Below are positions 938 to 49,147 of a stretch of 49,324 nucleotides of DNA, one piece after another. The first letter of the stretch is position 1; each line of letters opens with the position of its first letter. The notes beneath the pieces are model-generated. The model was not told the origin of the DNA. It saw only the letters and a program-made list of their open reading frames with translations, and searched no databases. The translations under genes were made by a program, and so were the position numbers. Origin of the DNA: Acholeplasmataceae bacterium (GTDB lineage Bacteria > Bacillota_I > Bacilli_A > Acholeplasmatales > Acholeplasmataceae); the NCBI GenBank assembly GCA_016934015.1, contig JAFGTQ010000037.1:1-49324 (forward strand), in the 5' to 3' direction.

Positions 938-1304
938 AATAAGCATCTCCTTTTTATTTCTCACACTAAGCATTTTGATTATATTTTAATAATATCAATC
1001 GAATATAACAGAATTTCTTATCCATATTGTCCACTATTCTATACTAGCGCCTTAAAGTATCTTTTTGATGTTTCATAAAGATTATAATACAAAATAATAA
1101 AGAATTGAGTGAAGTAATTTTAAAAGATTAATTTATATAAATAAAGCTCTTCCTAAGAATAAAAAGAGCGTTTCATAATAATATTGGTGACCAGTACAGA
1201 TCATTAATGCAAATTTGAAATTCATGTATAACCTACTTAAAATGTTTTTTGTTTAACTATATGTCTTTAATACAGAACATAAAATTCTTTCAAACTAAAT
1301 CAAA
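938..1304. other. Intergenic spacer 1 (no gene)
   Basis: This 367-bp AT-rich spacer holds no convincing ORF. It contains the ribosome site of the gene at 1-937 and the most degenerate tRNA-end/terminator module of the array (1141-1204). No clear copy of the 102-bp inverted-palindrome element is visible here. Confidence 0.6.
1141..1204 (-). repeat. tRNA-end/terminator module 1 (degenerate)
   Basis: Read on the minus strand, a hairpin made by TGGTCA pairing with TGATC (1188-1203) ends in GGTCACCA like the 3' end of tRNA-Glu. A terminator hairpin GCTCTT/AAGAGC (1146-1151 with 1164-1169) follows, then a T-rich tail. The stretch AGAGCGTTTCATAATAATAT next to the tRNA end is nearly the same as in the module at 10641-10664, so the two are homologous beyond the tRNA part. 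Confidence 0.65.
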
Positions 1305-2441
1305 CTATAATTCCTCAACAACAATTTGGTTTTTCCCGTGAGTTTTTCCATGAATAAGGGCTTTATCTGCGTGATGTAATAACGTATCAAAATCTCTGTT
1401 TTCTTCAGTATATACCATGCCTATGGTAACGGTAATTCTTACTTTTTTTGAAGTGTAAGATGTTTTATTAATAATCTTTTTAATTTCATCAGCAAAAAGA
1501 AATGCTTCCTCTTTAGTAACACCAGAAGCCATCATGACAAACTCTTCTCCTCCCCATCGACAGAGCAAGTCTTCTTCACGTATGGCTTTTTTGATAGAGG
1601 TAATCATTTGTAGTAAAATATCATCTCCGGTAATATGACCATAGATATCATTGACCGCTTTGAAATCATCGACATCAATCATGTATAGAGCGATACCACG
1701 TTCTTTAATAAAATCTTTACATAAATATTCTTGTGCCAGTGTTAAAAATCCTCGACGATTATAAACTTTCGTTAAATAATCAATTGTTGATTGTTCTTTA
1801 AGTAACTCGGTTTTTTTGATTAACTCAGTATTTAATTCAGTGATTTTAGCATTTAAAAGAATGATTTCTTCTTTACTCAATATCAGTTTAACTAATGATT
1901 GATAGCGATAATGGGCGACAAAAGGAGCAATGATACTGAACATGATGATGAAACCTCCCCCATGTAAATACCAATCTGAGAAAGAGTAAGTTTGAAAAAC
2001 GAGCTTTGCTGTCAACAATAATAGCATGTATAGTACACTGAGCAAAGCAGATTGTTTAAGAGAAACAACATTAATCAATGAAGGAAAAAGAATGACCACA
2101 AATGCTGCCGTAAAGTTAACTACATTAAGCTCAGCAACATCAAAAACAAAAATCTCTGGAGCAATGGTCATAAAGAGATAAATTGGGGTAAGTTGGGATA
2201 TAAGTAAAGTAAAGTGTGAAACCTTATTCTTCTTAAAAAGATTAAGCAAAAATAATATGATTACAACAATCATAATACGAATAATAAGTACGTAATACCA
2301 TTGATCGGGAAGTGTTTGAATGTCAAAAATAGCATTGATAAGCAGTAACGCGATTGCTATATAAATAAAAATAGTTAAGGATGAGGATTTACGTTGATCA
2401 AGCTCGTGTTGAACGTATTCTGAATAAATGCTGTGTGTCAT
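1305..2441 (-). CDS. Membrane-bound diguanylate cyclase (GGDEF)
   Basis: Predicted to make c-di-GMP from two GTP at the inner face of the membrane. Residues about 20-200 hold roughly six hydrophobic helices with no recognised extracellular sensor; a short helical linker follows. The GGDEF domain begins at DYLTKVYNRRGF and carries the active motif RWGGEEF. An inhibitory I-site (REED, RxxD) sits five residues before the active site, so product feedback is expected. The ATG has a good ribosome site (AAGAGG) and the 378-aa length suits a 6TM-GGDEF protein. It stands alone between two tRNA-end spacers, so it behaves as a single-gene cassette. The signal it senses is unknown. Confidence 0.9.
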   Translation of the reverse strand: MTHSIYSEYVQHELDQRKSSSLTIFIYIAIALLLINAIFDIQTLPDQWYYVLIIRIMIVVIILFLLNLFKKNKVSHFTLLISQLTPIYLFMTIAPEIFVFDVAELNVVNFTAAFVVILFPSLINVVSLKQSALLSVLYMLLLLTAKLVFQTYSFSDWYLHGGGFIIMFSIIAPFVAHYRYQSLVKLILSKEEIILLNAKITELNTELIKKTELLKEQSTIDYLTKVYNRRGFLTLAQEYLCKDFIKERGIALYMIDVDDFKAVNDIYGHITGDDILLQMITSIKKAIREEDLLCRWGGEEFVMMASGVTKEEAFLFADEIKKIINKTSYTSKKVRITVTIGMVYTEENRDFDTLLHHADKALIHGKTHGKNQIVVEEL

Positions 2442-2800
2442 AAATTACCTCTTAATAAATAGTTTGAAGTGCAATCTAATTTTACCAAAAACCATCATAT
2501 AAGTATATATAGAAAGATATTACTATTTCCTTAATGCATAATTTCATAAATTCTTCCTAATTTGAATATATGTTTTAGATCTTGATTCTTGGATTGAAAG
2601 CAGTGTAGGTTAATGATAATCCAGTAAACGATAAGATCTACTTTTTTAGTATAAAATCTATTTTTTTGTTAGTTCTGGAATACCTTCAAAAAGGATAGGT
2701 ATACTCAAACTTAATGTGCGCTAATTTATTTTAAAGATAGTTATTGTAAAATGAAAAACGCATAGGAGATTGATGATTATTTCAGTTTAATAAATATAAA

Positions 2801-2880
2801 AGTAGTCATTCTCTAGCATGAGAATGACTACTCTATTAACTTTAGTGACTCGTACTGACTCACGAATTTTGCTGAGTGAA
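2801..2880 (-). repeat. tRNA-end/terminator module 2
   Basis: Minus strand: hairpin formed by 2845-2851 and 2857-2863 (plus-strand arms GTGACTC and GACTCAC, loop GTACT), then a terminator with a perfect 13-bp stem (2801-2813 with 2820-2832, loop TAGCAT) and a T-rich tail. The loop equals that of module 3 at 8795-8799, while one stem pair changed from C:G to T:A, a compensatory substitution. The flank TTTTGCTGAGT also matches module 3. Confidence 0.75.
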
Positions 2881-3080
2881 CCAATTTAGACTAGCATAGA
2901 AGTATTGATTTGTGCTGAACTACCCCTTATAAGGTACTACATTGCATTACAATTAAACCTTACAGTTCATTAAATTATCAGCCACCAGTGCCACTTATAG
3001 TTCAAGAACTAAGATCATAAATCTCTATTCTATATTGGAACATTTTATGGGGCAGTGCAAAATGACACCTTTAAAAATAG

Positions 3081-3101
3081 CCCTTCCTATTCAAGGAAGG
3101 G
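3081..3101 (-). terminator. Rho-independent terminator of the 3117-4894 genes
   Basis: Inverted repeat CCCTTCCT (3081-3088) with AGGAAGGG (3094-3101), loop ATTCA. On the minus strand it is followed by a short T-run. It lies 16 bp after the stop codon of the hydrolase gene. Confidence 0.85.
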
Positions 3102-3116
3102 TTAAAGTTTATTATT

Positions 3117-4496
3117 TTAAGCTGTTATATCAATCCATGTCAGTTCATCGTACGCACTTAAATCAATATTCTCTCTGATAACACCCTTTAAATGCTCATC
3201 GAAAAATAAGATCATTATATCTTTTTGCATGTCCACAAGATACTCTTTATCTAAAGAACCCGTGTATCCAATGAGACGCATCAGGGGAGAAAACATATAT
3301 GCCATAGTGAAATCTGAATGTGTCGTACCTTGAATTTGGTATAAGCTCGCTTGATTACTTGCTAAAATCAAATCATAGAGATGTGCGTTATTGAATCCTG
3401 TTTCCCACGTTTCACTTCTAAGGAAAAGCGCGGGCATATCTAAGCCCCTTACAATGTCCTCATTTAATATCGGTTCAACCCATGCGTCAAGTCCAATCAA
3501 TGCCGTAATACGATCATCATTTAGTGCAACAGCAACATCAGCTCCTCCACCTGTTGAATGTCCAATCAAGCCTATATGGTCTAAATCGAGTTTCCCGTAA
3601 AAAAATGAAGAGATATCACTGTTTTCTTCTTCTAAATAATCGAGTGTCTTTGATACATCACCTGCATATGTATAAACGAGTTGATTGGCAGCATCTAAAA
3701 AATGAGATTCAGATCGATCAGGTAAAGCATCTAAATTTTGGAATACAATCTCGTCTTGAAATTTGGTTGCTACAGATCCATATGTGTGATCAATCGATAT
3801 AACAATATATCCTTGGCTGGCAAGTTCTTCCGCTAAATCTGTATGAAGATACATAAAACCGCCCCAGCCGTGTGAAATAATCACAACAGGATATGTTTCC
3901 TCTTCATTGCTCATGAGAGGAAACCAATAAGCGTTTGATTCGATATCATTGATTTGATTTAAAACAAATGATGGTAGTCCAATACTTGTTGATAGACGTT
4001 TTGAAATATCATTATTTTGAATCCATGGTAAAGGCTCTTTAGATGGCGTGTTATGTGCAGGATACCACATTGTAAAAGTGAATTTTCTAATATCCATCGT
4101 ATCATCTGTATATAGTTCTAGACGATCCTCATCTTCTATATAAAATATAAATTGTCCAATAGGATAACTACCTCTTGGATCTGGAATCTCATATGCGGGA
4201 AATGCATAAAGAAAACCAAGCGATAAGAAAATACTTAGGGTAGAAATAACTATAAAGAGTACTTTGAAAATTTTTCTACTCGGTTTCAGTAAGTCAAACA
4301 GAATAAAAAGTATCCAAAACAAAAGGAGTGGAAAAAGCTGCCATTTAGCATGTCCAAATGAACTATGAATGATGAGTCCTATGACAGTAAAAATCATAAA
4401 AAATAGAATAATCTTTTGATTTAGTTTATTTTTGTTGAGTAATAGAATAAACATAAATAAAGATAAACCAACGATGAATAAATCCAAAAATTGCAT
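3117..4496 (-). CDS. Membrane-anchored PAF-acetylhydrolase-like alpha/beta hydrolase
   Basis: Likely an esterase or phospholipase-type hydrolase acting outside the cell or at the membrane. About the first 105 residues are four hydrophobic helices. The rest resembles platelet-activating-factor acetylhydrolase family II: oxyanion segment HGWGG, nucleophile elbow GHSTGGG, and later Asp and His in GLDAW and THSDF. The start is placed at the ATG at 4496 because AGGAGAGG lies five bases before it; an in-frame ATG at 4526 lies upstream of that ribosome site. This gives 459 aa. The 110-aa membrane protein gene lies 65 bp upstream on the same strand, and a terminator follows at 3081. The substrate cannot be told from sequence. 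Confidence 0.8.
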   Translation of the reverse strand: MQFLDLFIVGLSLFMFILLLNKNKLNQKIILFFMIFTVIGLIIHSSFGHAKWQLFPLLLFWILFILFDLLKPSRKIFKVLFIVISTLSIFLSLGFLYAFPAYEIPDPRGSYPIGQFIFYIEDEDRLELYTDDTMDIRKFTFTMWYPAHNTPSKEPLPWIQNNDISKRLSTSIGLPSFVLNQINDIESNAYWFPLMSNEEETYPVVIISHGWGGFMYLHTDLAEELASQGYIVISIDHTYGSVATKFQDEIVFQNLDALPDRSESHFLDAANQLVYTYAGDVSKTLDYLEEENSDISSFFYGKLDLDHIGLIGHSTGGGADVAVALNDDRITALIGLDAWVEPILNEDIVRGLDMPALFLRSETWETGFNNAHLYDLILASNQASLYQIQGTTHSDFTMAYMFSPLMRLIGYTGSLDKEYLVDMQKDIMILFFDEHLKGVIRENIDLSAYDELTWIDITA

Positions 4497-4561
4497 AAAG
4501 GCCTCTCCTAAAGATATATAATACATGTGATATGCTCTATGTCACGTTCATAGTCAAATGA

Positions 4562-4894
4562 TTATTTTTGATGTACAAATCTAAATAAAACAAGTTCTAT
4601 AATGATACCATACGCTAATCCTGCAAGAAAACCCATTAAATCTAAAAACTCAGTCGAACTATAAAAAGCAAATGATACAAAGGCCCCCAGTAAAAGACCT
4701 CTTACGCTTGCGATCATTAAAGTCTTTGGTCTAGAGAATAGCCCAATGATTAAGCCCATTAATAGACGATTAAACCAAAATGAAAACAAGTAAACATTGC
4801 TTAATGTATCAGGCATTCTAAGTGATGCACCCACAATGCATACAATACCAAGCATAGTTCCTAAAGCTAAACCATAGATTAAACGTTTGTTCAT
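4562..4894 (-). CDS. Small four-helix membrane protein, unknown
   Basis: A 110-aa protein made almost entirely of four hydrophobic segments (about residues 7-24, 38-55, 62-80, 85-104) with short polar turns. No catalytic motif or recognised family. The ATG is preceded by GGGAGGA, a strong ribosome site. It is the first gene of a two-gene unit with the downstream PAF-acetylhydrolase-like gene, so it may help that enzyme or the membrane it acts on; that is a guess from position alone. Confidence 0.75.
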   Translation of the reverse strand: MNKRLIYGLALGTMLGIVCIVGASLRMPDTLSNVYLFSFWFNRLLMGLIIGLFSRPKTLMIASVRGLLLGAFVSFAFYSSTEFLDLMGFLAGLAYGIIIELVLFRFVHQK

Positions 4895-5255
4895 AGGAAA
4901 TCCTCCCTTAAATAAAAAAACATCAAGATTAATCTTATCATATCATCAAACAAATAAATGTATAGATCACATTTGATAGAATCTTGAGTATGCGTGAACT
5001 CAATCTCATATGGCACTATAGAAGATTAAATCGTGTTAATCTATGAAAAAAACAGCCTTACTCTAATTAAATATATCATATCATAAATCATTTTATTGTT
5101 CAATTGAGTCTACTCTATCCACTTAGGTTTCTGATGTCCTATCAATAATGCAAATTGTAAAAAAAACTCAATTTTTCGTTATCGATAACAAGGAGCAATT
5201 ATTCACAATTTTATTTATAACACAAATACCACGTTATATTTTAATAAAAGACTCT

Positions 5256-5277
5256 AAAACTTATATCAACATAAGTT
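5256..5277. repeat. Single palindrome of the AACTTAT/ATAAGTT family
   Basis: AACTTAT (5258-5264), loop ATCAAC, ATAAGTT (5271-5277). It matches the left palindrome of the 102-bp elements at 8509, 10422 and 12357, but here it joins directly to sequence that in the 8509 copy follows the right palindrome. The interior and second palindrome (about 80 bp) are missing, as expected from deletion or recombination between the two ends. Confidence 0.75.
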
Positions 5278-5414
5278 ATACAAAAACAGGTGTTGACTCC
5301 CTAAATAGATAATTTTGTTTCAAACCAATTTTTTGAGCATTCCAAAATTCAGTTTCACACCCCATATAATTGCTTAAGGATTAAATGCAATAATGGCTTA
5401 ACAAGAATAAAAAA

Positions 5415-5473
5415 GCCCATCTCATGCATGAGATGGGCGGCAATAAAATTGTTGGTGATCCGTAGCGGTTTAG
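5415..5473 (-). repeat. tRNA-end/terminator module A
   Basis: The terminator is a perfect 24-bp palindrome (5415-5438, arms GCCCATCTCATG/CATGAGATGGGC) followed on the minus strand by a run of T. Next to it, 5453-5463 reads TGGTGATCCGT on the plus strand, the reverse complement of a tRNA-Glu-like acceptor end with one change. The module lies about 15 bp beyond the stop codon of the large sensor gene. Confidence 0.75.
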
Positions 5474-5487
5474 AATCCAGGAATCCA

Positions 5488-8181
5488 TTATGACGTCATA
5501 TACTCTTTTTCTGTAATTGCTTTTATAAATATCCCAACTAATTCTTTATCAAATTGAGAACCAGCACATCGATTTAATTCTGAAATCGCAACTTTGTAAT
5601 CTAAGGCTTTTCTATAGGGTCTATCAGCAGTCATTGCTTCATAAGCATCACAAATGCAAATTACTCTTGAAAACAGTGGTATTTCTTCTTCTTTAAGTCC
5701 ATTAGGATACCCTTTTCCATCCCATCTTTCATGATGAGTGAGTGCATATTCAGCTAGTTTAGAATATTTATCTGCAGAACGTAGGATATGATAACCATTA
5801 ATGGTATGAGTTTTCATAATAACCCATTCTTCATCTGTTAATTTCCCTGGCTTATCTAAAATACGATCTGGTATTGTTATTTTTCCTATATCATGCATCA
5901 AACCAGCAAATTCTAATTCTTTAGTTTGATCCTCACTTAAATAAAGTTTTTCACCCATCATCTTACAATAATCGCTCACTCTACTTGAATGTAATTTTTC
6001 TTCTTCATATTTCTCTTTTAATGTCTCAAAAAGAGTCATAATCGTTTCGTTGCGTGCGCTTTGTCCATGTAGAATTTTGTTTGCATACATTCTATCTTCT
6101 GCATTCTTTAAAACATCTTTTATATTGATAGATGAATTGATTTTAACATCATGACCTATGGATATAGAAAATTTAAAATCGTGATATTCGAAAGATAAAT
6201 TACCACTAGAGATAGAATTACGTATGATTTCGAACTCTTTTTCATTTGTATTGGGACAGATCATTACAAATTCATCTCCACCAATTCTTGCAACAAAATC
6301 ATCTTTTCTAATATGTTTTGTTAAGATGTTACTAACCTTGATAAGAACTGTATCACCTAAATCGTGCCCGTAGGCATCATTAATAAGTTTTAACCCATCT
6401 AAATCAATCATAGCAACAGTTAGAGGATAATATTCCTCATGATCCAATTCTAAAAGTTTTTCTTCAAAATATTTACGATTAGGTAGTCCTGTAAGATAAT
6501 CATGATTACTAGTGTATAAAATATCTTCTTCTTTATGCTTTTGCTCGGTTACATCCATCACCATCGAAATAATGAGTGGTGAGTTAGGAACATTAACACC
6601 TTGAGCTGTAATATAACGTACAATTTTACCATTTTTAGTAATCGGTACATATTCCCATCTTTTCAGTTTAGGATCATTACTAGCTAGTCCCATTAATACT
6701 TTTTCTTTAATTTCTTTTCTAAATGTTTCATCTTCATAAACTACATCCCAAAATGAATCTGGTTTCATCAAAGCTTCTCTAGTCGTTCCATAAAATATAG
6801 GAAAATTACTATTCATATATTCAAAATTAACTTCAGGATCAACTGAATTTACAGCGATACCGATAATTAGATTATCCATTACCAGTTTTAAACGATCGAG
6901 TGTTTCATTAAGTTGCAGTTCAGTTTCAATCAAATCATTAATGACTTCAGTATAAATAATGATACCAGCAATTTCACCATTGACATCATACCAAGGTTGA
7001 GATAACCAGCGTGTATATTGAACGCTTCCGTCTAATCGTATGAAATCATCGCGATCACCTGAAACAGTTTCACCTTTTAAACTTCTTTGATGCACATCTC
7101 TCCATTTTTGTGGAAGATCAGGAAAAACCTCATAATGATGTTTACCTACAATATCTTTACTTACGTTATATATTTCACAATATCGATCACTAACATACAC
7201 GTAATTTAAATCTTTATCGTGAACAGCTATCCCTTGGTTACTTCGACCAATAATGTATTGCAACAGTTCTTTTCTGTAGTTGATTTCATGCTCTGATTCT
7301 ATTCTATCAGTGATATCTCTTGCAAATGCAGAAGCACCAATAATCTCTTGTTTATCATTATATATTGGATTATAAATTGACTCATAATACCTAATATTTA
7401 CGTCACCATACTCTTGAATTGTTTTGTGTGATTTACCTGATAATGCTAAATCATAGTTTCTTTTAGCGTTTTCTTTATCTACATTTGATGATATAGCATC
7501 CATTAAGTTTGAACCAGTTTTTATATCTGCATTGTATGCGAATTTCATTACGTCTTTATGCACTTTATTGAAATATAAGTAATTGTAATTCTTATCGATA
7601 GCCAATATGATGAAATCTGTAGGGCTTTCTAAACTGGATTTCAGTAGCAATTCAGAGTTTTCTTTTTCAATCCTATCGATAGTTAAATCAACAATCATTT
7701 GAGTGAGATTTAATAAAAAATCAATAATATCTTCGATTTGTTTTTCAGTAACTATTGGAACTTCCTTAAGTGATTTTAAGTATGCTTTTTCATCAAAACC
7801 ATATTTCTTAGCTTGATCAACAAAAAAATTAATATTTGGTTTTTCTAAAAAACATTGTCCAGTAAAAAGATTGGCTATATGTTCACCTTGAATGATAATT
7901 GGTACTGCAATATCAATTAGACCATTATGACATTTATAGATGCTGTATTTTTTATCTCTACTTACATCATTTGCTAAAACTGTATCACTGATTTTGCAGT
8001 TTTTGCTCGTCTCTGTGTTGACACGATGAAAATCTGTACATATGTGTCTCCATCCTGATTTAGAAATAATATTTCCTTCAATATCTAAAATAGCAGTTAC
8101 AAATCCAGTCGACTTATTAAACCCCTCTAACAAAATATTGAATCTATTAAAATCAATGTACTTCAATATGTCTTTTTTCAT
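5488..8181 (-). CDS. PocR-PAS-PAS-PAS-GGDEF-HD-GYP c-di-GMP sensor enzyme
   Basis: A soluble, multi-sensor protein predicted both to make and to degrade c-di-GMP. In order: a PocR-type ligand-binding domain (about residues 10-165, with conserved C, GWRHIC, and the CHNGLIDIAVPI and TGQCF segments), three PAS domains (about 180-550), a GGDEF domain with intact RIGGDEF and I-site RKDD, and an HD-GYP domain with HDIGK, HHERWDGKGYP and the DAYEAMTADRPYR tail. The start is placed at the ATG at 8181 because GAGGTG (8189-8194) precedes it; the longer frame from 8208 would include that ribosome site inside the coding sequence. The result is 897 aa. It is a single-gene unit flanked by tRNA-end modules. 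Which activity dominates is unknown. Confidence 0.9.
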   Translation of the reverse strand: MKKDILKYIDFNRFNILLEGFNKSTGFVTAILDIEGNIISKSGWRHICTDFHRVNTETSKNCKISDTVLANDVSRDKKYSIYKCHNGLIDIAVPIIIQGEHIANLFTGQCFLEKPNINFFVDQAKKYGFDEKAYLKSLKEVPIVTEKQIEDIIDFLLNLTQMIVDLTIDRIEKENSELLLKSSLESPTDFIILAIDKNYNYLYFNKVHKDVMKFAYNADIKTGSNLMDAISSNVDKENAKRNYDLALSGKSHKTIQEYGDVNIRYYESIYNPIYNDKQEIIGASAFARDITDRIESEHEINYRKELLQYIIGRSNQGIAVHDKDLNYVYVSDRYCEIYNVSKDIVGKHHYEVFPDLPQKWRDVHQRSLKGETVSGDRDDFIRLDGSVQYTRWLSQPWYDVNGEIAGIIIYTEVINDLIETELQLNETLDRLKLVMDNLIIGIAVNSVDPEVNFEYMNSNFPIFYGTTREALMKPDSFWDVVYEDETFRKEIKEKVLMGLASNDPKLKRWEYVPITKNGKIVRYITAQGVNVPNSPLIISMVMDVTEQKHKEEDILYTSNHDYLTGLPNRKYFEEKLLELDHEEYYPLTVAMIDLDGLKLINDAYGHDLGDTVLIKVSNILTKHIRKDDFVARIGGDEFVMICPNTNEKEFEIIRNSISSGNLSFEYHDFKFSISIGHDVKINSSINIKDVLKNAEDRMYANKILHGQSARNETIMTLFETLKEKYEEEKLHSSRVSDYCKMMGEKLYLSEDQTKELEFAGLMHDIGKITIPDRILDKPGKLTDEEWVIMKTHTINGYHILRSADKYSKLAEYALTHHERWDGKGYPNGLKEEEIPLFSRVICICDAYEAMTADRPYRKALDYKVAISELNRCAGSQFDKELVGIFIKAITEKEYMTS

Positions 8182-8508
8182 TCTCATCACCTCGATTGAT
8201 TTTGTCATTAGGTTAAGAAAATAAAGTCACAAATCATTATATATGTGTTGACATTTGCTTGTAGAAATGTACTTAATTGTTTTTATTATACTACAAAATC
8301 GAGCATAGACATATATTTCATCTTTTGATTGCCTATTTTGCAAAAAGAATTATCTTTGTACTTTTATGCATGTTAAATCCACAATTCTCTATCGGGATGG
8401 AATTCAACTCACAATTTGGTATACCTATTCTTTTATTTATTTTACTGGGTTTGACTTTATTTACCACGCATACCACGTGTACCACGTCATATTTTGAAGA
8501 AGCCTAGT

Positions 8509-8610
8509 AAAAACTTATATTTATATAAATTGGTATTTTTGCTGTCTTTTTGAAATAATGTATCAACTTCTAAACATGCGATTTAATTTTGCTTATATTG
8601 TCATAAGTTT
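8509..8610. repeat. 102-bp element with inverted terminal palindromes, copy B
   Basis: Left end AAAACTTATATTTATATAAA and right end GCTTATATTGTCATAAGTTT are inverted relative to each other, and each is itself palindromic. The interior is AT-rich and not conserved. The right 25 bp are almost identical to those of the copy at 12357-12460, and the overall length is the same as the other two full copies. Confidence 0.75.
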
Positions 8611-8747
8611 GGTAAAAACAGTGCTGACTTCCTAAATGGATGTTTTTGTTATAAACTAGTGTTTTTAAGCGTTCCAAAATTCAGTTTCATAATCTGATGA
8701 CTTGTTTAAAAATTCAAGTATAACAATCGCTTTACAAAGATAAAAAA

Positions 8748-8822
8748 GCCCCCATTTCGATATGAAATGAGGACACTCAAAGCGATGGTGACCCGTACTG
8801 GTTCACGATTTTTCCCGAGTAA
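8748..8822 (-). repeat. tRNA-end/terminator module B
   Basis: Terminator stem 8750-8758 with 8764-8772 (loop GATAT), with six T on the minus strand after it. Beside it, 8787-8798 reads GGTGACCCGTAC, identical to the reverse complement of the tRNA-Glu acceptor end. It folds as GTGACCC (8788-8794) with GGTTCAC (8800-8806), loop GTACT. Beyond the acceptor stem it no longer matches the tRNA T-arm but matches modules 2 and C. Confidence 0.8.
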
Positions 8823-9024
8823 TCTAAACTTAACAAGTATTTAAATGCAAACTTTTTACTGATATTTTTTGTTATTGCTGTATTTTTAAAATTAATTTCA
8901 TAATATTGGTGCAGATTGGATGATAGAAAATTTTATTACTATAGAAAATCACTTTAAAGACTTTATTTGCGTTACTAGCTTTAACAAAAAGAGAAACCTC
9001 TAGGTGTTACTAAACAAATATATG

Positions 9025-10019
9025 TTATTCCCTTGTATAGTATCCGGTACCAAAATCAAAGGCAAATTGAGCGTACTCAATTCTTTCACTATCTGTTAAA
9101 GCCCCTGATAAAAAACTATGTCCCATACCTTCAATTCTAAATATTTGATTTTCTATATTTAACATTTCAAGTTTTTCGTGTAACATAATTGAACTTTGTA
9201 TGTTTACGGTTGTATCCTCTGTGCCGTGAAATGTTATCGTAGGAGTGTCACTCTCATCTAAATAGGATAATGAGTTAAAATCATTCATTCTTTCGATGAT
9301 TTCTTGTAAACTATTATCTTCTGTTATGCCTATTTTATATCCTTCCTTATACAACTCAACTAATAAATCATTAGGAACTTCGTCGATTGTTGAGTACCCC
9401 TCTAATAAGGATAAATAGTCTCGAGTATCCCCACCATACATATTGATGACAAATGAAACATTGCTGTTGTATAAACTAAGTTCTTGATCACCGATAAAAT
9501 CTTCGTTTTCTGTATACCCCAACATCGTAACTATACCCCCGCCAGCACTGCTTCCAAAGAGTCCAATATTCGATGCATCGATTCCTAATGTAGATGAATT
9601 TTTATGAAGCCATCTAATCGCATCTTTTGTATCAATGAAGCAATCTTCCATGGTTGTTCCTTTGTCTTGATTAGCTAGTGTATAATTCACACTTACAACT
9701 GCATATCCAGCTTCTAGAAACATTTGATTGAGATACCAAAAAAATCCTTTTTCAAAACCAAAACTTTTATCTCCACCCTTATAAGCTCCTCCGTGAACAT
9801 AAACTAAAACTGGATAAGAATCAAAACTAGAATCAAATGGATAAACGATATCAAGCTCAATATCTTCTCCATAAGATTGTTTATATACATGTGTTTGTAT
9901 TTTATAGTCAGTATCTCCGATAGATTGATTGAATATACTACCTGTATTTGTTCCAAACGTAGAGCATCCTGAAAGAAATATCAAGATTCCTAAAATTGGT
10001 AATAAAAGAATTTTTTCAT
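9025..10019 (-). CDS. Lipoprotein alpha/beta-hydrolase (BD-FAE/carboxylesterase type), apparent frameshift at the start
   Basis: A secreted lipid-anchored esterase: lipobox LSGC after a hydrophobic signal segment, oxyanion motif HGGAYKGG, nucleophile elbow GSSAGGG, Asp in HGTEDTT and His in GMGHSF. A fine start exists at 10019 (ribosome site GAAAGGTG at 10028-10035, eight bases away), giving MKK as expected of a signal peptide. However, the run of six A after ATG (10011-10016) leaves that ATG one base out of frame; a seventh A would give MKKILLLPILG. The open frame instead extends upstream to 10092 through poor sequence without a ribosome site. A promoter-like pair TTCTCA-17-TAAAAT (10066-10071, 10043-10048) sits between 10092 and 10019. 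Homopolymer indel, sequencing error or slippage are possible. Confidence 0.75.
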
Positions 10020-10042
10020 TAATATCACACCTTTCAAATATT

Positions 10043-10071
10043 ATTTTACAGCATGGCATGACTACTGAGAA
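10043..10071 (-). promoter_or_regulatory. Possible promoter of the esterase gene
   Basis: On the minus strand TTCTCA (10066-10071) lies 17 bp before TAAAAT (10043-10048). Transcription from here would begin downstream of the upstream in-frame ATG codons at 10092 and 10059, which supports translation starting at 10019. Match to consensus is moderate. Confidence 0.4.
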
Positions 10072-10421
10072 AAGAAACCACCTGAGTTGCATAAAAAGTA
10101 TCTTAAGATGCTTTTTAAAGGCGAGTTGTTTGAAGTTTTTACGTGTTTCGATTTATCACATACCTCATTGTTTGACTATAATCCTCCGTATATATGGTTA
10201 CCCAATAATATTACATTCAAATCTTATTCTAATGTCTAAAAGATGGATTTTCCCATTTTAATTATCATTTTGATCATGATGTGATAAATAAATCTATTAT
10301 TCTTCAAATATAAGAAACTCCTCCAAAGTTTTGCAATCATCAAAATTTAATATTTTTTCTGAATATTCCAATATTTTCTAAGTTTACAACACGTATAAGG
10401 ATGTAAATTTAAGTTATAACC

Positions 10422-10524
10422 AAAACTTATATCAACATAAATTGTCTTTTTGTGTAAAAATTGGAAACTTGCCATAGATCTTTAAGAATTGATTACAAAT
10501 TTGCTTATGTGCACATAAGTTTAA
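10422..10524. repeat. 102-bp element with inverted terminal palindromes, copy C
   Basis: Left palindrome AAAACTTATATCAACATAAA and right palindrome GCTTATGTGCACATAAGTTT; the core of the right one, CTTATGTGCACATAAG, is a perfect palindrome. Spacing end to end equals copies B and D although the interior differs, as expected if the ends are the functional parts. Confidence 0.75.
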
Positions 10525-10628
10525 AAGAATTTTCTAAATTTTTATAAACTCTCCATTTTTTCATATTTTTAACAATATTTACCTGATAGTAAGTTTGAAA
10601 ACTATATTTAGATTTCGAGAAAAAAACC

Positions 10629-10700
10629 CTTCTCGCGGGTGAGAAGAGCGTTTCATATTCATATTGGTGACCCGTAGGGGTTCACACTTTCATCAGTGTC
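10629..10700 (-). repeat. tRNA-end/terminator module C
   Basis: Terminator stem CTTCTC (10629-10634) with GAGAAG (10641-10646) and a T-run on the minus strand. The tRNA-like end GGTGACCCGTA starts at 10666 and folds with GGGGTTCAC (10667-10673 with 10678-10685, one bulge). The stretch between terminator and tRNA end is nearly identical to module 1. Confidence 0.8.
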
Positions 10701-10763
10701 TATCTGACTAGACTGATATAGAAACCTAAATTACACGGATAGATTTGGTTACGTTATATATTC

Positions 10764-11420
10764 TTATATATTGTTGTTAATTTTTAAACCTTTAATTATT
10801 AGATAGAATCCTAAGAATAGCTCATTTGTTATAATTGGAAGTGCAAATAGCATTTGAATATTTCCACTAATGCCAAACACATTCATTGAAAAGATTAACA
10901 CTACTCCAACTAATCCCCAAATTGAAATATATCTTGGTACTAATTTTATTCTATAGAATGTGTAATATAAAATGAAACTACTTAAACTAAAGAATATTGG
11001 CACTAATATTCCTAATATGTCATTTCTAAATCCCTTAATAACATTTTCAATAATATTTAAGCTTACTAAATTTATCGCTGAAAAGTCTCTACTTAAAGTA
11101 ATGAATGACATAGCAATAACTGCAGCTAAAACACATGCGATTGCTTCTATGATTCTTAATCCAATATATGCAACTGCATACCGCTCACTATAGATCTTAA
11201 TATATTTATAAAGAATTACTGCAATTCCTATGACTGCAATTCCATTAACTAATTCAAGAATTACACCAAATCTTAAATTTGAAGAATTATCTGCCAATGT
11301 TTCTAAATATCCTTCAGTAGTAATAACGCCTTCAATAATCGTTCCTCCTATTAAACTTGCAAATATAGCAATGATAAATAGAAGTCCTACAACAATTGAA
11401 TCTTTTCTTATTTTACTCAT
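10764..11420 (-). CDS. DUF4386-type six-helix membrane protein
   Basis: A 218-aa integral membrane protein with about six hydrophobic segments. The N-terminal pattern (basic start, then IAIFASLIGGTIIEG) and overall layout fit the DUF4386 family, whose function is not known. The ATG has AAAGGAG as ribosome site. It is the third gene of a tight operon behind a membrane protein and an XRE-type regulator, six bases after the regulator's stop. No enzyme motif is visible. Confidence 0.75.
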   Translation of the reverse strand: MSKIRKDSIVVGLLFIIAIFASLIGGTIIEGVITTEGYLETLADNSSNLRFGVILELVNGIAVIGIAVILYKYIKIYSERYAVAYIGLRIIEAIACVLAAVIAMSFITLSRDFSAINLVSLNIIENVIKGFRNDILGILVPIFFSLSSFILYYTFYRIKLVPRYISIWGLVGVVLIFSMNVFGISGNIQMLFALPIITNELFLGFYLIIKGLKINNNI

Positions 11421-11426
11421 TTTAAT

Positions 11427-11660
11427 TTATTTCTCCTTTTCATTTGATGTATCAATGTAAAATATTTCACCAATAGATTTATCAAATACTAATGCTAATT
11501 TAAAACAAAGATCTAGAGTTGGTGAATATTGTCCTTTTTCAATAGCAACAATTGTCTGTCTTGAGACTCCCACTTTAGATGCTAAATCTTTTTGAGTCAT
11601 TTCATCGTTTAAGAATCTTAGTTTCCTTACATAATTATTTATTATTAAATTTTTCATCAT
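11427..11660 (-). CDS. XRE/Cro-family DNA-binding regulator
   Basis: A compact 76-77-aa helix-turn-helix protein: MTQKDLASKVGVSRQTIVAIEKGQYSPTL is the classic XRE signature (quoted in part: QKDLASKVGVSRQTI), followed by LALVFDKSIGEIF. It consists of little more than the DNA-binding domain, like many small regulators paired with membrane proteins. Its start overlaps the stop of the preceding membrane gene (TAATG), so translation is coupled. It probably controls its own operon; the promoter at 12172-12200 overlaps short inverted repeats that could be its operator. Confidence 0.88.
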   Translation of the reverse strand: MMKNLIINNYVRKLRFLNDEMTQKDLASKVGVSRQTIVAIEKGQYSPTLDLCFKLALVFDKSIGEIFYIDTSNEKEK

Positions 11661-12121
11661 TATATCCCTTTTCTGTAATAAATTATTGTCGTTGTTTCAG
11701 ATACAATTTCAGAAATAACTCCAAATATAATTAATACTATAAAGAACATGTGATGACTCATACTAGTAATCTGTGTAACTAGGGCAAGTATAAATCCTAT
11801 TGAGAAAACTATTAAAGATATTTTTGTAGCATTTAATTCAATTAATTTATCTCTTTCATCAGTAATTTCTAATTCGTCTGTTTCTTCTCCTTTTGCTGTT
11901 TGAATTGCTGCATTGATAATTGAGAAGATACTCATAATAATGATTCTTGCAACAATTGATATTGGAATAAAAATTAATATCGTTAATGCCCAAAATCTAA
12001 ATACATCTGTTGTGTCTGCTACCCCATTTAAATATCTTTGATATACCACTAATGAATATATTCCTGTAATGAGAATAGTGCTAATTATGTTTGTTAAACT
12101 TCTACTTTCTTGATATGACAT
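11660..12121 (-). CDS. Four-helix membrane protein (DUF2178-like), partner of XRE regulator
   Basis: A 153-aa membrane protein: hydrophobic segments at about 10-28, 42-62, 103-120 and 125-143, separated by a charged cytoplasmic loop (ELEITDERDKLIELNATK). The ITDERD..I motif between helix pairs is typical of the DUF2178-like proteins commonly encoded beside a small XRE regulator. First gene of the three-gene operon, with ribosome site GGAGGT. Function unknown; membrane-stress or immunity roles are guesses. Confidence 0.7.
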   Translation of the reverse strand: MSYQESRSLTNIISTILITGIYSLVVYQRYLNGVADTTDVFRFWALTILIFIPISIVARIIIMSIFSIINAAIQTAKGEETDELEITDERDKLIELNATKISLIVFSIGFILALVTQITSMSHHMFFIVLIIFGVISEIVSETTTIIYYRKGI

Positions 12122-12171
12122 CTTTGTACCTCCGTTTATTTTTTTGTTTATATGTTAGTTTTTACATACAT

Positions 12172-12200
12172 AGTGTAACAATATATATACTTTGTGTCAA
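12172..12200 (-). promoter_or_regulatory. Promoter of the XRE operon
   Basis: Perfect -35 TTGACA (12195-12200 on the minus strand), 17-bp spacer, -10 TACACT (12172-12177). The start region contains short inverted matches (TACATACATAGTGTA) that could be the binding site of the encoded regulator. Confidence 0.75.
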
Positions 12201-12356
12201 GTTTATTTTACATTTATTTATTTTTTTAGCAACTATAGCTGAATTTTCACTAAAATAACTTCCAAAAATGAAAATGAGATGCATGGATTAATGATACGGC
12301 TCATTGTTGTTAATTCTAAACGAACGACTATTTACTCAAGCGTTTACTATATTATC

Positions 12357-12460
12357 GAAAACTTATGTCAATATGAGTTGTATTTTTAGGTATATTTTAC
12401 AGACTTATTATTGACTTTCTTTTCCTGGTGGTAATTTTGCTTATGTTGTCATAAGTTTTA
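12357..12460. repeat. 102-bp element with inverted terminal palindromes, copy D
   Basis: Left end AAAACTTATGTCAATATGAG, right end GCTTATGTTGTCATAAGTTT; the right end reversed reads AAACTTATGACAACATAAGC, so the two ends are inverted copies of about 20 bp. This copy lies immediately downstream of the intact tRNA-Glu and its terminator. Confidence 0.78.
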
Positions 12461-12571
12461 CAATCTTAAGTCTTTTTGCTTAATTTCTTGAAAATTTTAT
12501 ACATATACCCCAAAAATATAGCGCACTTCTATTTAAATAATTATTTAACATATATAAAACTCCATATAAAA

Positions 12572-12597
12572 AGCCCATTTATTGGCTTAAATGAGCT
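12572..12597 (-). terminator. Terminator of the tRNA-Ser/tRNA-Glu operon
   Basis: Stem 12572-12580 with 12589-12597 (AGCCCATTT/AAATGAGCT, one mismatch) followed on the minus strand by T-rich sequence, 15 bp after the tRNA-Glu CCA end. It is the intact counterpart of the terminators in the five derived modules. Confidence 0.8.
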
Positions 12598-12612
12598 GTT
12601 TTATGATTTTAT

Positions 12613-12688
12613 TGGTGACCCGTACGGGATTCGAACCCGTGAATGCATGCGTGAAAGGCATGTGAGTTAACCGTTTCTCCAACGGGCC
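12613..12688 (-). tRNA. tRNA-Glu (anticodon TTC)
   Basis: 76-nt cloverleaf on the minus strand: acceptor GGCCCGT pairs with ACGGGTC, anticodon loop CTTTCAC gives TTC, T-loop TTCGAAT, discriminator A and an encoded CCA. It begins five bases after tRNA-Ser. Its last 12-16 nt are repeated in five spacers to the left. Confidence 0.97.
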
Positions 12689-12693
12689 GTTGG

Positions 12694-12784
12694 TGGCGGA
12701 GCAGGAGGGATTTGAACCCTCGCACCAGTTTCCTGATCTACACCCTTAGCAGGGGCGCCTCTTCAGCCACTTGAGTACTACTCC
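12694..12784 (-). tRNA. tRNA-Ser (anticodon GCT)
   Basis: 91-nt cloverleaf with long variable arm; acceptor GGAGTAG pairs with CTGCTCC, anticodon loop CTGCTAA gives GCT, T-loop TTCAAAT, discriminator G and encoded CCA. First gene of a two-tRNA operon. Confidence 0.96.
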
Positions 12785-30947: not shown

Positions 30948-32069
30948 CTATCTTGATTTATTTTGATACATTTTTTGATCAACTTTAAAATAGATATCAT
31001 CAAAAGACAAGTCTTTGTTCATCGATTCAAATCCATAACTAAAAGATAAAGTTTGAATTTGAGGAATTTTATTGCTCTTCAGTATATTTTTTAGTTCACT
31101 AACCAAATCTTCAATATGACATTGATCACAATTTTCATGAACTACAATGAATTCGTCGCCACCTAATCTGGCAACCATAGCTTGTTTTGAAAATACTTTT
31201 AATAATCCATTCGCAAACTCTGTTAATACCAAATCACCAATGAGATGCCCATTTAGATCATTGATTTCTTTAAAATGATCAAGATCAAACATGAGTAAAA
31301 CAAAATCATTTTTCTTTTCAATAAGTTGATTTGTATAATCCTCAAAACTTTGTCGATTATATACTTTTGTTAAGTAATCTTTCCCGGTAGAAGTTGTCTC
31401 TAGCAAAAAATAAGCCATAAATAATGCAATTCCAATCGTGGACCAGCTAAAAAATAAACGCGAATAAACTGTTTGGATTAGTGCTCCTGCTAAAGGAATA
31501 AACAAGAAAAGTAAAACTATCCATATGAGTGATGAAGAAACACGCTTTCTATGTATATAAACAAGTACTATGGAATAAAAATAAACAAGATATGTTAATA
31601 TTTCATTTAACCATTTGAATGGACCACCGTGGTATCCATAAGTCAAAGGATTAATTTCAAAAAATACCGGTGTGACTGCATTGACGATAAGTAGTAAGGC
31701 AACAATCATAAATGCATGCATATAATAGAATCTATTTTTAAGTCTTTTTTTAGATCCAAATGTTTTAAAATCAACATAGCATACCCATAAGCCTGCCATG
31801 CTGGTCCCTAATAAAACTAATAAAAAATTTGAAAAATAACTATAGAAAAAACCACCCTTTATGAGAAGTCCATCCGTAATCCATGTTAAAGGCTCTATGA
31901 CTAAAGCTGCCATATTCATGATGACCAAAATTCTTAATAGCTGCTTAGAATAATTGTCGATGGAATCTTTACTTTTCGCTTTCATAATGATGAATAAAAC
32001 AATCAGCATCATAAGTGCAAAAATATTGACAGAAAACATTTGTAAATATTGATAGATGGCCATGTTCAA
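30948..32069 (-). CDS. Seven-helix membrane GGDEF protein (diguanylate cyclase)
   Basis: 373 aa: seven hydrophobic helices in residues 1-215 (a 7TM-like sensor with no soluble domain) and a C-terminal GGDEF domain starting at DYLTKVYNRQSF with intact ARLGGDEF. The position five residues before the active site reads KQAM instead of RxxD, so product inhibition through the I-site is probably absent, unlike the cyclase at 1305-2441. Single gene, ended by the terminator at 30896-30920. Divergent from the ferredoxin gene. Confidence 0.88.
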   Translation of the reverse strand: MNMAIYQYLQMFSVNIFALMMLIVLFIIMKAKSKDSIDNYSKQLLRILVIMNMAALVIEPLTWITDGLLIKGGFFYSYFSNFLLVLLGTSMAGLWVCYVDFKTFGSKKRLKNRFYYMHAFMIVALLLIVNAVTPVFFEINPLTYGYHGGPFKWLNEILTYLVYFYSIVLVYIHRKRVSSSLIWIVLLFLFIPLAGALIQTVYSRLFFSWSTIGIALFMAYFLLETTSTGKDYLTKVYNRQSFEDYTNQLIEKKNDFVLLMFDLDHFKEINDLNGHLIGDLVLTEFANGLLKVFSKQAMVARLGGDEFIVVHENCDQCHIEDLVSELKNILKSNKIPQIQTLSFSYGFESMNKDLSFDDIYFKVDQKMYQNKSR

Positions 32070-47674: not shown

Positions 47675-49147
47675 TTATTCTCCAAAATCAACGATATTAT
47701 CAAGTTGATTTAATTGTTCTAATTTTATCATATTAATAAATATTTCAGCAAGATTTGGGTCAAACTGTGTTTCAATACAACGATTAATCTCAATCAAGGC
47801 ATTTTCAATACTCATTCCTTTTCGATAAGGTCGATCTGCTGTCATTGCCTCAAATGAGTCAGCAACATTGATAATTCTTGCAAATAATGGGATTTCATTA
47901 CCTTTTAAACCCCTCGGATATCCTTGACCATCCCATCTTTCATGATGATAAAGAGCATATTCGGCAAGTCCAGAATATTCATCTGCAGCCTTTAATATTT
48001 GATAACCTATACTCGTGTGTGTTTTAATTATTTCATATTCATCTTTAGTTAAGCGTCCAGGTTTATTGATAATCGCATCAGGAATTGATATTTTACCAAT
48101 ATCGTGATAAAGACCGGCTAATTCGAGCACATCTAAATCTTCTTTATTAAGTCCTAATTTGAGTCCTATCATTTTACAAAAGTGACCTACACGTTGTGAA
48201 TGCAATTTTTCTTCTAAATATTTATCCGTTAATGTGTTCATCAAAGCTCTAATGGTGCGATTTCTAACACTCATGCCAACTGTAATTTTATGTCGTAAAA
48301 GGTGATTCTCCGCAAGCTTCAAAACCTCGTCCATCGATTGATTGATAGATGTCGCAATCTCAAATCCAACAGATACAGAAACTTTAATTTTTTCTACTTG
48401 TATGTTATCTAATATATTTAAAATGCTTTCTTTCATCTCTAACATACTCATAACATCTTGATTAATCATCAAAATAGCAAATTCATCACTCCCAATGCGG
48501 GCAACAATGTCATTATTATGCAATATTTTTTTTAACTTTTCTGAAATCATAACAATAATAGAGTCACCATAAAGATGACCATATGTATCATTGATAATTT
48601 TTAACCCGTTAATGTCAATCATGATAAGTCCTAAAGGATATTTTTCAAAATTAGATCCCAGATAGACTTTTTCTAAGTATCTCCGATTATATAGACCCGT
48701 TAGATAATCATGATTTTTCATATAGATGATTTGATTTTTCAGTTCAATAATCTCTGTTACATCCCTAGTATTAACGATTGCACCAATGATGTCTTGATTT
48801 TCATTAAAAAGCGGTTCGTAATTGGTTTCATAGTAACTCTTTTGCTCATATCCGATCTCTTCAATAACTTTTTTTGAATCCCCTAACAAAGCAACATCAA
48901 GACAAATTTTGATATCGTCCCAATCTAATAAATTTTTCATTCCATCCATCACATTCATACCTATTATTATTTTTTTGCCATATTTTTCTTCAATCAATTC
49001 CTTGTATGCCTTATTGAAAAATAAATATTGATAATTTTGATTGATACCATATGTATAAATATTTATGTTGCTATTTAAAATAATTGATATCGATGAATGG
49101 TCTTCAATTATTTTTCTAAGTCTTTTGTCATTTGTGAAACTTTGCAT
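47675..49147 (-). CDS. PAS-GGDEF-HD-GYP c-di-GMP enzyme with GSDEF motif
   Basis: 490 aa, no membrane helix. PAS domain (about 20-135), GGDEF-fold domain with the variant motif ARIGSDEF (second Gly replaced by Ser, no RxxD I-site), and a complete HD-GYP phosphodiesterase (YHDIGKISIPD, HHERWDGQGYP, NVADSFEAMTADRPYRKG). The cyclase half may be weak or serve as GTP sensor, leaving the protein mainly a c-di-GMP hydrolase. Strongly related in domain order to the sensor at 5488-8181. The start ATG 49147 has only a weak ribosome site (TAGG). Confidence 0.88.
   Translation of the reverse strand: MQSFTNDKRLRKIIEDHSSISIILNSNINIYTYGINQNYQYLFFNKAYKELIEEKYGKKIIIGMNVMDGMKNLLDWDDIKICLDVALLGDSKKVIEEIGYEQKSYYETNYEPLFNENQDIIGAIVNTRDVTEIIELKNQIIYMKNHDYLTGLYNRRYLEKVYLGSNFEKYPLGLIMIDINGLKIINDTYGHLYGDSIIVMISEKLKKILHNNDIVARIGSDEFAILMINQDVMSMLEMKESILNILDNIQVEKIKVSVSVGFEIATSINQSMDEVLKLAENHLLRHKITVGMSVRNRTIRALMNTLTDKYLEEKLHSQRVGHFCKMIGLKLGLNKEDLDVLELAGLYHDIGKISIPDAIINKPGRLTKDEYEIIKTHTSIGYQILKAADEYSGLAEYALYHHERWDGQGYPRGLKGNEIPLFARIINVADSFEAMTADRPYRKGMSIENALIEINRCIETQFDPNLAEIFINMIKLEQLNQLDNIVDFGE

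Follow-up and report, generated by a model that had tools for sequence, protein, structure and literature searches.

The window analyzed here is the entire 49,324-bp contig JAFGTQ010000037.1 from an assembly of an Acholeplasmataceae bacterium (GCA_016934015.1; 1.17 Mb, 83% complete), and its subject is an array of small gene cassettes that lies downstream of a tRNA-Glu gene. Tex, tRNA-Ser (12694-12784), and the adjoining tRNA-Glu(TTC) (12613-12688; ARAGORN and Rfam RF00005) are all encoded on the minus strand, and the accessory genes follow tRNA-Glu toward position 1. The last 12 nt of the tRNA form an attachment segment, TACGGGTCACCA, that recurs between the accessory genes. At up to 2 mismatches it matches the window 6 times, tRNA copy included and always on the minus strand (12613-12624, 10665-10676, 8786-8797, 5453-5464, 2843-2854, and 1185-1196), where 0.80 matches (standard deviation 0.84) are expected by chance and none of 100 shuffles reached 6. 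We infer that tRNA-Glu is the chromosomal attachment gene. The initial annotation of this DNA had described 5 spacers with copies of the tRNA-Glu 3′ end in one orientation, each followed by a terminator, and co-oriented genes lying 1 to 3 to a segment; all of this holds, and chance-level matching, which it had named as the finding that would speak against it, does not account for the 12-nt matches in the window.

The repeat is longer than the tRNA match. In its well-kept form the core reads, on the minus strand, GTGAACC-NN-TAC-GGGTCAC-CA and is near-palindromic, with the left half mirroring the right at 6 of 7 positions in most sites of cassette end class A and many of class B (end classes that we defined by sequence pattern). 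The left half of the tRNA itself matches the mirror at just 3 or 4 positions. The match length of 12 to 16 nt first reported thus needs correcting, although the repeat is real: 12 nt are conserved with the tRNA, joined to a near-palindromic left half that the tRNA lacks. The tRNA-side core, CGAATCCCGTACGGGTCACCA (12613-12633), combines the tRNA left half with the right half of cassette 1. The palindromic left half (GTGAACC..GGGTCAC) is intact, with no mismatches, in GTGAACCCCTACGGGTCACCA (10665-10685) and GTGAACCAGTACGGGTCACCA (8786-8806), and more decayed in the other 3 minus-strand cores: CTAAACCGCTACGGATCACCA (5453-5473) is degenerate with a tRNA-like left half, GTGAGTCAGTACGAGTCACTA (2843-2863) is degenerate in part, and AATGATCTGTACTGGTCACCA (1185-1205) has a decayed left half.

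Each core is followed on the minus strand by further conserved features. A terminator-like hairpin stands after tRNA-Glu, in the 5′ end of cassette 1 (12572-12597), and 3′ of each of the cores at 10665 (10626-10649), 8786 (8748-8774), 5453 (5415-5438), 2843 (2799-2834), and 1185 (1146-1169); the window holds 12 terminators where 3.9 are expected. In 3 of the 5 complete intervals the terminator is followed by two 18-bp palindromes, ACTTATGNNNNCATAAGY, spaced exactly 78 bp apart: 12439-12456 with 12361-12378 in cassette 1 (span 12361-12456), 10503-10520 with 10425-10442 in cassette 2 (span 10425-10520), and 8591-8608 with 8513-8530 in cassette 3 (span 8513-8608). This pairing never occurred in shuffled windows, and in our survey of the order (160 genomes, 28 genera) the spacing was 78 bp in 43 cassette ends, 79 bp in 4, and each remaining value in at most 2. 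The 5′ region of cassette 4 has a single palindrome (5259-5276), and its flanking sequence suggests that two palindromes were fused there by a deletion between direct repeats. The pairs are possibly a protein-binding platform or the replication origin of the element. An Rfam scan of the spacers found no known RNA element, its sole matches being the two tRNAs, and a promoter scan stayed at chance level, so that promoters of individual cassettes are not demonstrable by that scan.

The 5 complete cassettes, all on the minus strand, carry different genes, named here by their Pfam matches. Cassette 1 (10677-12624) encodes a DUF2178-like membrane protein (a weak match), an HTH_3 regulator, and a DUF4386 membrane protein; cassette 2 (8798-10676) an alpha/beta hydrolase of the BD-FAE family (9025-10092); cassette 3 (5465-8797) a 906-aa PocR-PAS-GGDEF-HD signaling protein (5488-8208); cassette 4 (2855-5464) a 110-aa membrane protein and a PAF-acetylhydrolase-like protein; and cassette 5 (1197-2854) a membrane GGDEF protein (1305-2441). 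Positions 1-1196 hold, again on the minus strand, a FUSC/HAD-domain protein truncated at the contig end and represent a further incomplete cassette or the array flank. At the opposite contig end (45776-49147) lie two neighboring GGDEF-type signaling proteins, one of which (47675-49147) resembles by eye the C-terminal part of the cassette 3 protein.

The same arrays are found in related genomes, the closest named relative being Tenericutes bacterium HGW-Tenericutes-2 (Mycoplasmatota), whose Tex is 80% identical. At up to 1 mismatch the core GTGAACCNNTACGGGTCACCA has 60 sites in 24 of the 160 genomes and 6 of the 28 genera, against none for a reversed-pattern control; since the pattern misses decayed cores, the true numbers may be higher. 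Wherever the fetched stretch reaches the tRNA, the array starts at tRNA-Glu, mostly beside tRNA-Ser and tex. A comparison of the locus across relatives, which the initial annotation had proposed, shows that the same tRNA-Glu anchors arrays of differing cassettes and that whole cassettes recur with different neighbors. Elsewhere in the genomes the 12-mer lies, where inspected, at other copies of tRNA-Glu, with two ectopic exceptions. One core in G027 (C1, near 1711790) lies directly 3′ of a carbamoyltransferase-like gene and is followed by another core 7.6 kb away, and G071 has on C47 a second series of 3 cores, the first with a left half like a tRNA T-arm; secondary insertion sites and rearrangements are candidate readings of both.

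Successive cores delimit 68 cassettes with a median length of 2.2 kb and a minimum of 404 bp, 3 of them measuring 27-33 kb. In 61 surveyed intervals shorter than 6 kb, 135 of the 139 open reading frames with a length of 75 aa or more share the direction of the tRNA. Among 128 short-cassette proteins, 11 match ParE toxin, 8 Phd/YefM antitoxin, and 9 Fic/DOC, and others match HepT-like ribonuclease or nucleotidyltransferase families; where toxin-antitoxin genes are common in the relatives, the cassettes of the window carry regulators, hydrolases, and cyclic-di-GMP-type signaling proteins. A cluster resembling type I restriction-modification systems, whose two large proteins are 89-95% identical from genome to genome, comes after a CGAAACCGTTACGGG-type core in G017 and G027 and lies past the last detected core in G019. 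Throughout the array on G077:C48, class C 3′ ends (tRNA-like, GTAAACCGTTAC) alternate with palindromic class A and B ends. The 110-aa protein of cassette 4 has a homologue, 71% identical by blastp, in G043, downstream of the same tRNA and past the last detected core. As a marker of the far end of the array we used an aldo/keto reductase conserved past the last core in several relatives; that end, which falls outside the contig of the window, was not located, and the genome's own aldo/keto reductase lies on contig C6 with no core nearby.

Cassettes have been exchanged between genomes as units. A cassette of G004 (4291-6493) is 91.6% identical over 2,223 bp, from core to core, to one of G019 (6777-8976), and the two genomes belong to different genera within a family and differ in the neighbors of this cassette. 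A whole 1.29-kb cassette is common to G004 and G071 (83%) at different array rank, and a 508-bp stretch reaching the next core is 95% identical across two families (G017 and G043). An end of about 265 bp at the 5′ side is shared by cassettes with unrelated cargo. The end classes point the same way. The left and right classes meeting at a junction are independent (mutual information 0.253 versus 0.222 shuffled, approximate p = 0.25), whereas within a single cassette the class of one end is associated with that of the other (0.459 versus 0.256 shuffled, approximate p = 0.0026). Because the NN bases of the core track the left end (CC in 29 of 35 class A, AG in 18 of 23 class B, and CG in 19 of 21 tRNA left ends), the crossover should fall within the conserved 12 bp of TACGGGTCACCA.

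The unit-wise exchange, the conserved ends, and the end-class pattern agree with the predictions of stepwise site-specific insertion and not with those of static duplication, and the first two support the earlier suggestion of small site-specific elements stacked at a tRNA 3′ end. The alternative that the tRNA-Glu 3′ end and its terminator were duplicated in tandem, with no mobility, agrees with the fact that both are repeated. It is extremely improbable, however, since the terminators differ between successive copies and, in other genera, turn up again with the same class of cassette, cassettes have moved as units between genera into unrelated neighborhoods, and the left half of the copies is palindromic where that of the tRNA is not.

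As initially reported, the window shows no integrase: none lies beside the tRNA or an attachment site, and there is no recombinase among its small cassettes. In four relatives, by comparison, large elements encode two large serine recombinases in tandem, LSR1 and LSR2, each of about 510-530 aa. In these genomes (G002, which belongs to the genus of the window, G027, G066, and G078) the pair has the orientation of a core that follows it at a distance of 0.2-3.4 kb, and the G002 contig has a tRNA-Glu-type core at position 4 and another at 32015. Homologues of LSR2 at E ≤ 1e-60 occur in 6 of the 160 genomes, and among the best matches listed those of plasmids and phages are at most 37% identical. 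Both G002 recombinases have Resolvase, Recombinase, and Zn-ribbon domains. NCBIfam models place CcrB best for all four proteins (E 5e-31 to 2e-42, matches far below the curated cut-offs), with CcrA and XisF also matching. The four elements combine the recombinase pair with DUF927 helicase (PF06048, E 1.8e-24), DUF960 (PF06124, E 4.2e-23), RadC-like, HU-like, and DUF3846 genes, and their gene order is the same. Both ends of cassette 1 have counterparts in G027: compared by eye, 39 of the 44 nt in its conserved class A 3′ end (10686-10729) are identical to the 3′ end of the recombinase-bearing element, and the first 271 bp at the 5′ side of cassette 1 are 89% identical to the cassette that comes after that element.

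Since tRNA 3′ ends are classical targets of tyrosine integrases, the cassettes could instead be remnants of tyrosine-integrase islands at tRNA-Glu or be mobilized by XerC/XerD, and the resemblance of class C 3′ ends to the tRNA T-arm would fit such an origin. Beside this tRNA-Glu, G005 indeed has elements repeated in tandem (C1, 1-14000 and 1856000-1883099), each about 9.65 kb long and each with a full tRNA-Glu copy and a gene for a tyrosine recombinase of 303 aa, which is broken in one copy. These elements, however, duplicate the whole tRNA and have no palindromic core. The search for a tyrosine recombinase that the initial annotation had called for returned as PF00589 matches in the window's own 83%-complete assembly only XerC and XerD (identified by gene context), in the complete array genome G035 the matches are XerC, XerD, and a single partial one, and the recombinases found inside arrays beside a core are exclusively of the serine type. 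We consider this origin improbable, and XerC/XerD or another tyrosine recombinase was rejected as the mover.

Resemblance to integrons is of a different kind. In sedentary chromosomal integrons, small cassettes form arrays in a single orientation, toxin-antitoxin genes abound, and the recombinase is encoded separately; the arrays described here share all these traits, with mostly 1 to 3 genes per cassette. An integron proper, in which attC cassettes are moved by an integron integrase, is nevertheless very unlikely. No IntI was found in the 83%-complete assembly, and single-strand folds of the 78-bp pair region are no better than shuffles in 2 of 3 modules (z 0.4 to 1.1); attC-like folding of the palindrome pairs was accordingly rejected as inconsistent across modules. 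A terminator precedes every cassette, and the large recombinase-bearing elements carry genes typical of staphylococcal cassette chromosome (SCC) elements. The arrays further differ from chromosomal integrons in the chemistry of the candidate recombinases and in being anchored at a tRNA, and no shared promoter was seen, with the promoter scan at chance level. Having found neither an integron integrase nor folding attC sites, we therefore class the system as one of the SCC kind. The integron-like mobilization in trans proposed initially is thus plausible in one part, in that the same core and ends occur on recombinase-bearing elements at the same tRNA, including one congener, and unsupported in its strict sense, the likely enzymes being a serine recombinase pair of the SCC Ccr kind.

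SCC elements, among them SCCmec (the resistance cassette of MRSA) and composite and pseudo-SCC islands, rank with the closest known systems. Relatives with the same core have a recombinase pair nearest the CcrA/CcrB models, by matches far below the cut-offs, and none was found in the window or its own assembly. Shared with SCC, in the recombinase-bearing elements of relatives only, are a Cch-like DUF927 helicase and DUF960, both described for SCC and SCC-like islands (PMC10061031, PMC10581047). Further shared traits are a target at a conserved gene's 3′ end, short direct repeats accompanied by inverted repeats, stacking in tandem, members without a recombinase, and type I restriction-modification cargo. 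The target of SCC is rlmH (rimL for ccrDE islands) and its core is TATCATAA, in contrast to tRNA-Glu and the unrelated core GTGAACCNNTACGGGTCACCA. The hosts here are Mycoplasmatota-like, most units are 0.4-6-kb cassettes without a recombinase, many with toxin-antitoxin genes, and they have a long conserved 5′ end with a terminator and 78-bp-spaced palindromes. The SCC-like relatives compared were the Enterococcus cassette chromosome (PMC6222049) and the ccrDE islands at rimL (PMC10581047); SCC-like islands are also known at rlmH or ssrA in Bacillota (PMC10061031).

Dehalococcoides ssrA islands offer a second parallel. They lie in tandem, are split by direct repeats of the ssrA 3′ end, and carry the CcrB-like integrase DsiB on some islands, with 15 of 31 lacking an integration module (PMC3146451); the arrangement behind one small-RNA gene, the 3′-end repeats, and a CcrB-like integrase on some members are all matched here. 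Those islands differ in their target, a 20-bp repeat, a pair of one large and one small serine recombinase (DsiB/DsiA), the rest of the integration module, and a cargo of reductive dehalogenases, and they are not reported as arrays of short single-orientation cassettes, whereas our repeats match tRNA-Glu and the pair consists of two large proteins (516 and 530 aa). Attachment sites without an integrase, stacked at a small-RNA gene, also recall cis-mobilizable elements and island accretion at tRNA genes (discussed in PMC3146451), which usually derive from integrative and conjugative or integrative and mobilizable elements with a tyrosine integrase; here the candidate enzymes are paired serine recombinases. 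Composite SCC islands and the Dehalococcoides ssrA islands are known cases in which islands with and without a recombinase stack up beyond the 3′ end of a conserved gene. The present arrays depart from them in their tRNA-Glu target, in their hosts, in a core of unrelated sequence, in cassettes that are small and often bear toxin-antitoxin genes, and in a long cassette end that is conserved. A literature search found no description of SCC-like cassette arrays at tRNA-Glu within its coverage, outside of which lay most subscription papers and preprints.

Taken together, we consider it likely that the segments of the window are small non-autonomous integrative cassettes belonging to an SCC-like system whose attB is the 3′ end of tRNA-Glu. 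It is plausible, judging from their shared cores and ends, that the large recombinase-bearing elements serve the small cassettes in trans. Autonomous larger elements visiting or occupying the same site would encode the recombinase pair, which would join the near-palindromic site of a circular cassette to the end of tRNA-Glu by a crossover within TACGGGTCACCA. The newcomer would land next to the tRNA, restoring its 3′ end and terminator, and push the earlier occupant away behind a fresh palindromic core, so that cassettes would stack in one orientation.

Several points weigh against this reading. Three of the 5 cores in the window are degenerate, and its 83%-complete assembly has no PF07508 serine recombinase. 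No such recombinase was found in some array genomes that are 92-99% complete either (G004, G016, G019, and G043), and arrays can therefore outlive the enzyme or be static. The link between recombinase and core comes from four elements, the Ccr model matches fall far below the cut-offs, and the mutual information rests on approximate p-values and on end classes of our own definition in which related cassettes are non-independent. The exact core is absent from the viral contigs searched, and neither empty sites nor circular forms nor excision were observed. A fossil array, left by past SCC-like insertions and now immobile, would make the window a decayed relic of the same mechanism; the degenerate cores and the missing recombinase speak for it. 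Two cores are perfect, however, a tRNA-Glu junction of this kind bears the recombinase pair in the congener G002, and the incompleteness of the assembly limits what the missing gene can say. This account is possible though somewhat doubtful, and we infer that in this genome the array is more than a relic.

More tentatively, and with the balance tipped slightly against it, the arrays may constitute a lineage-wide tRNA-Glu platform that is the serine-recombinase counterpart of the chromosomal integron. On such a platform, recombinase pairs acting in trans would gather and stack many cassettes of 1 to 3 genes, each with its own insulating terminator and a dedicated 265-bp end with 78-bp-spaced palindromes, and would pass them between genera. 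For tests, the system offers paired large serine recombinases along with many natural attachment sites. Most known SCC elements come from staphylococci and related bacteria, in which rlmH is occupied by one or a few large islands. In the uncultivated Mycoplasmatota-like order studied here, machinery of the SCC type appears to drive a high-capacity array whose small cassettes sit at a tRNA gene. If this is true, the lifestyle of the integron, a fixed platform with small co-oriented cassettes rich in toxin-antitoxin genes, would have arisen a second time with an unrelated recombinase chemistry.

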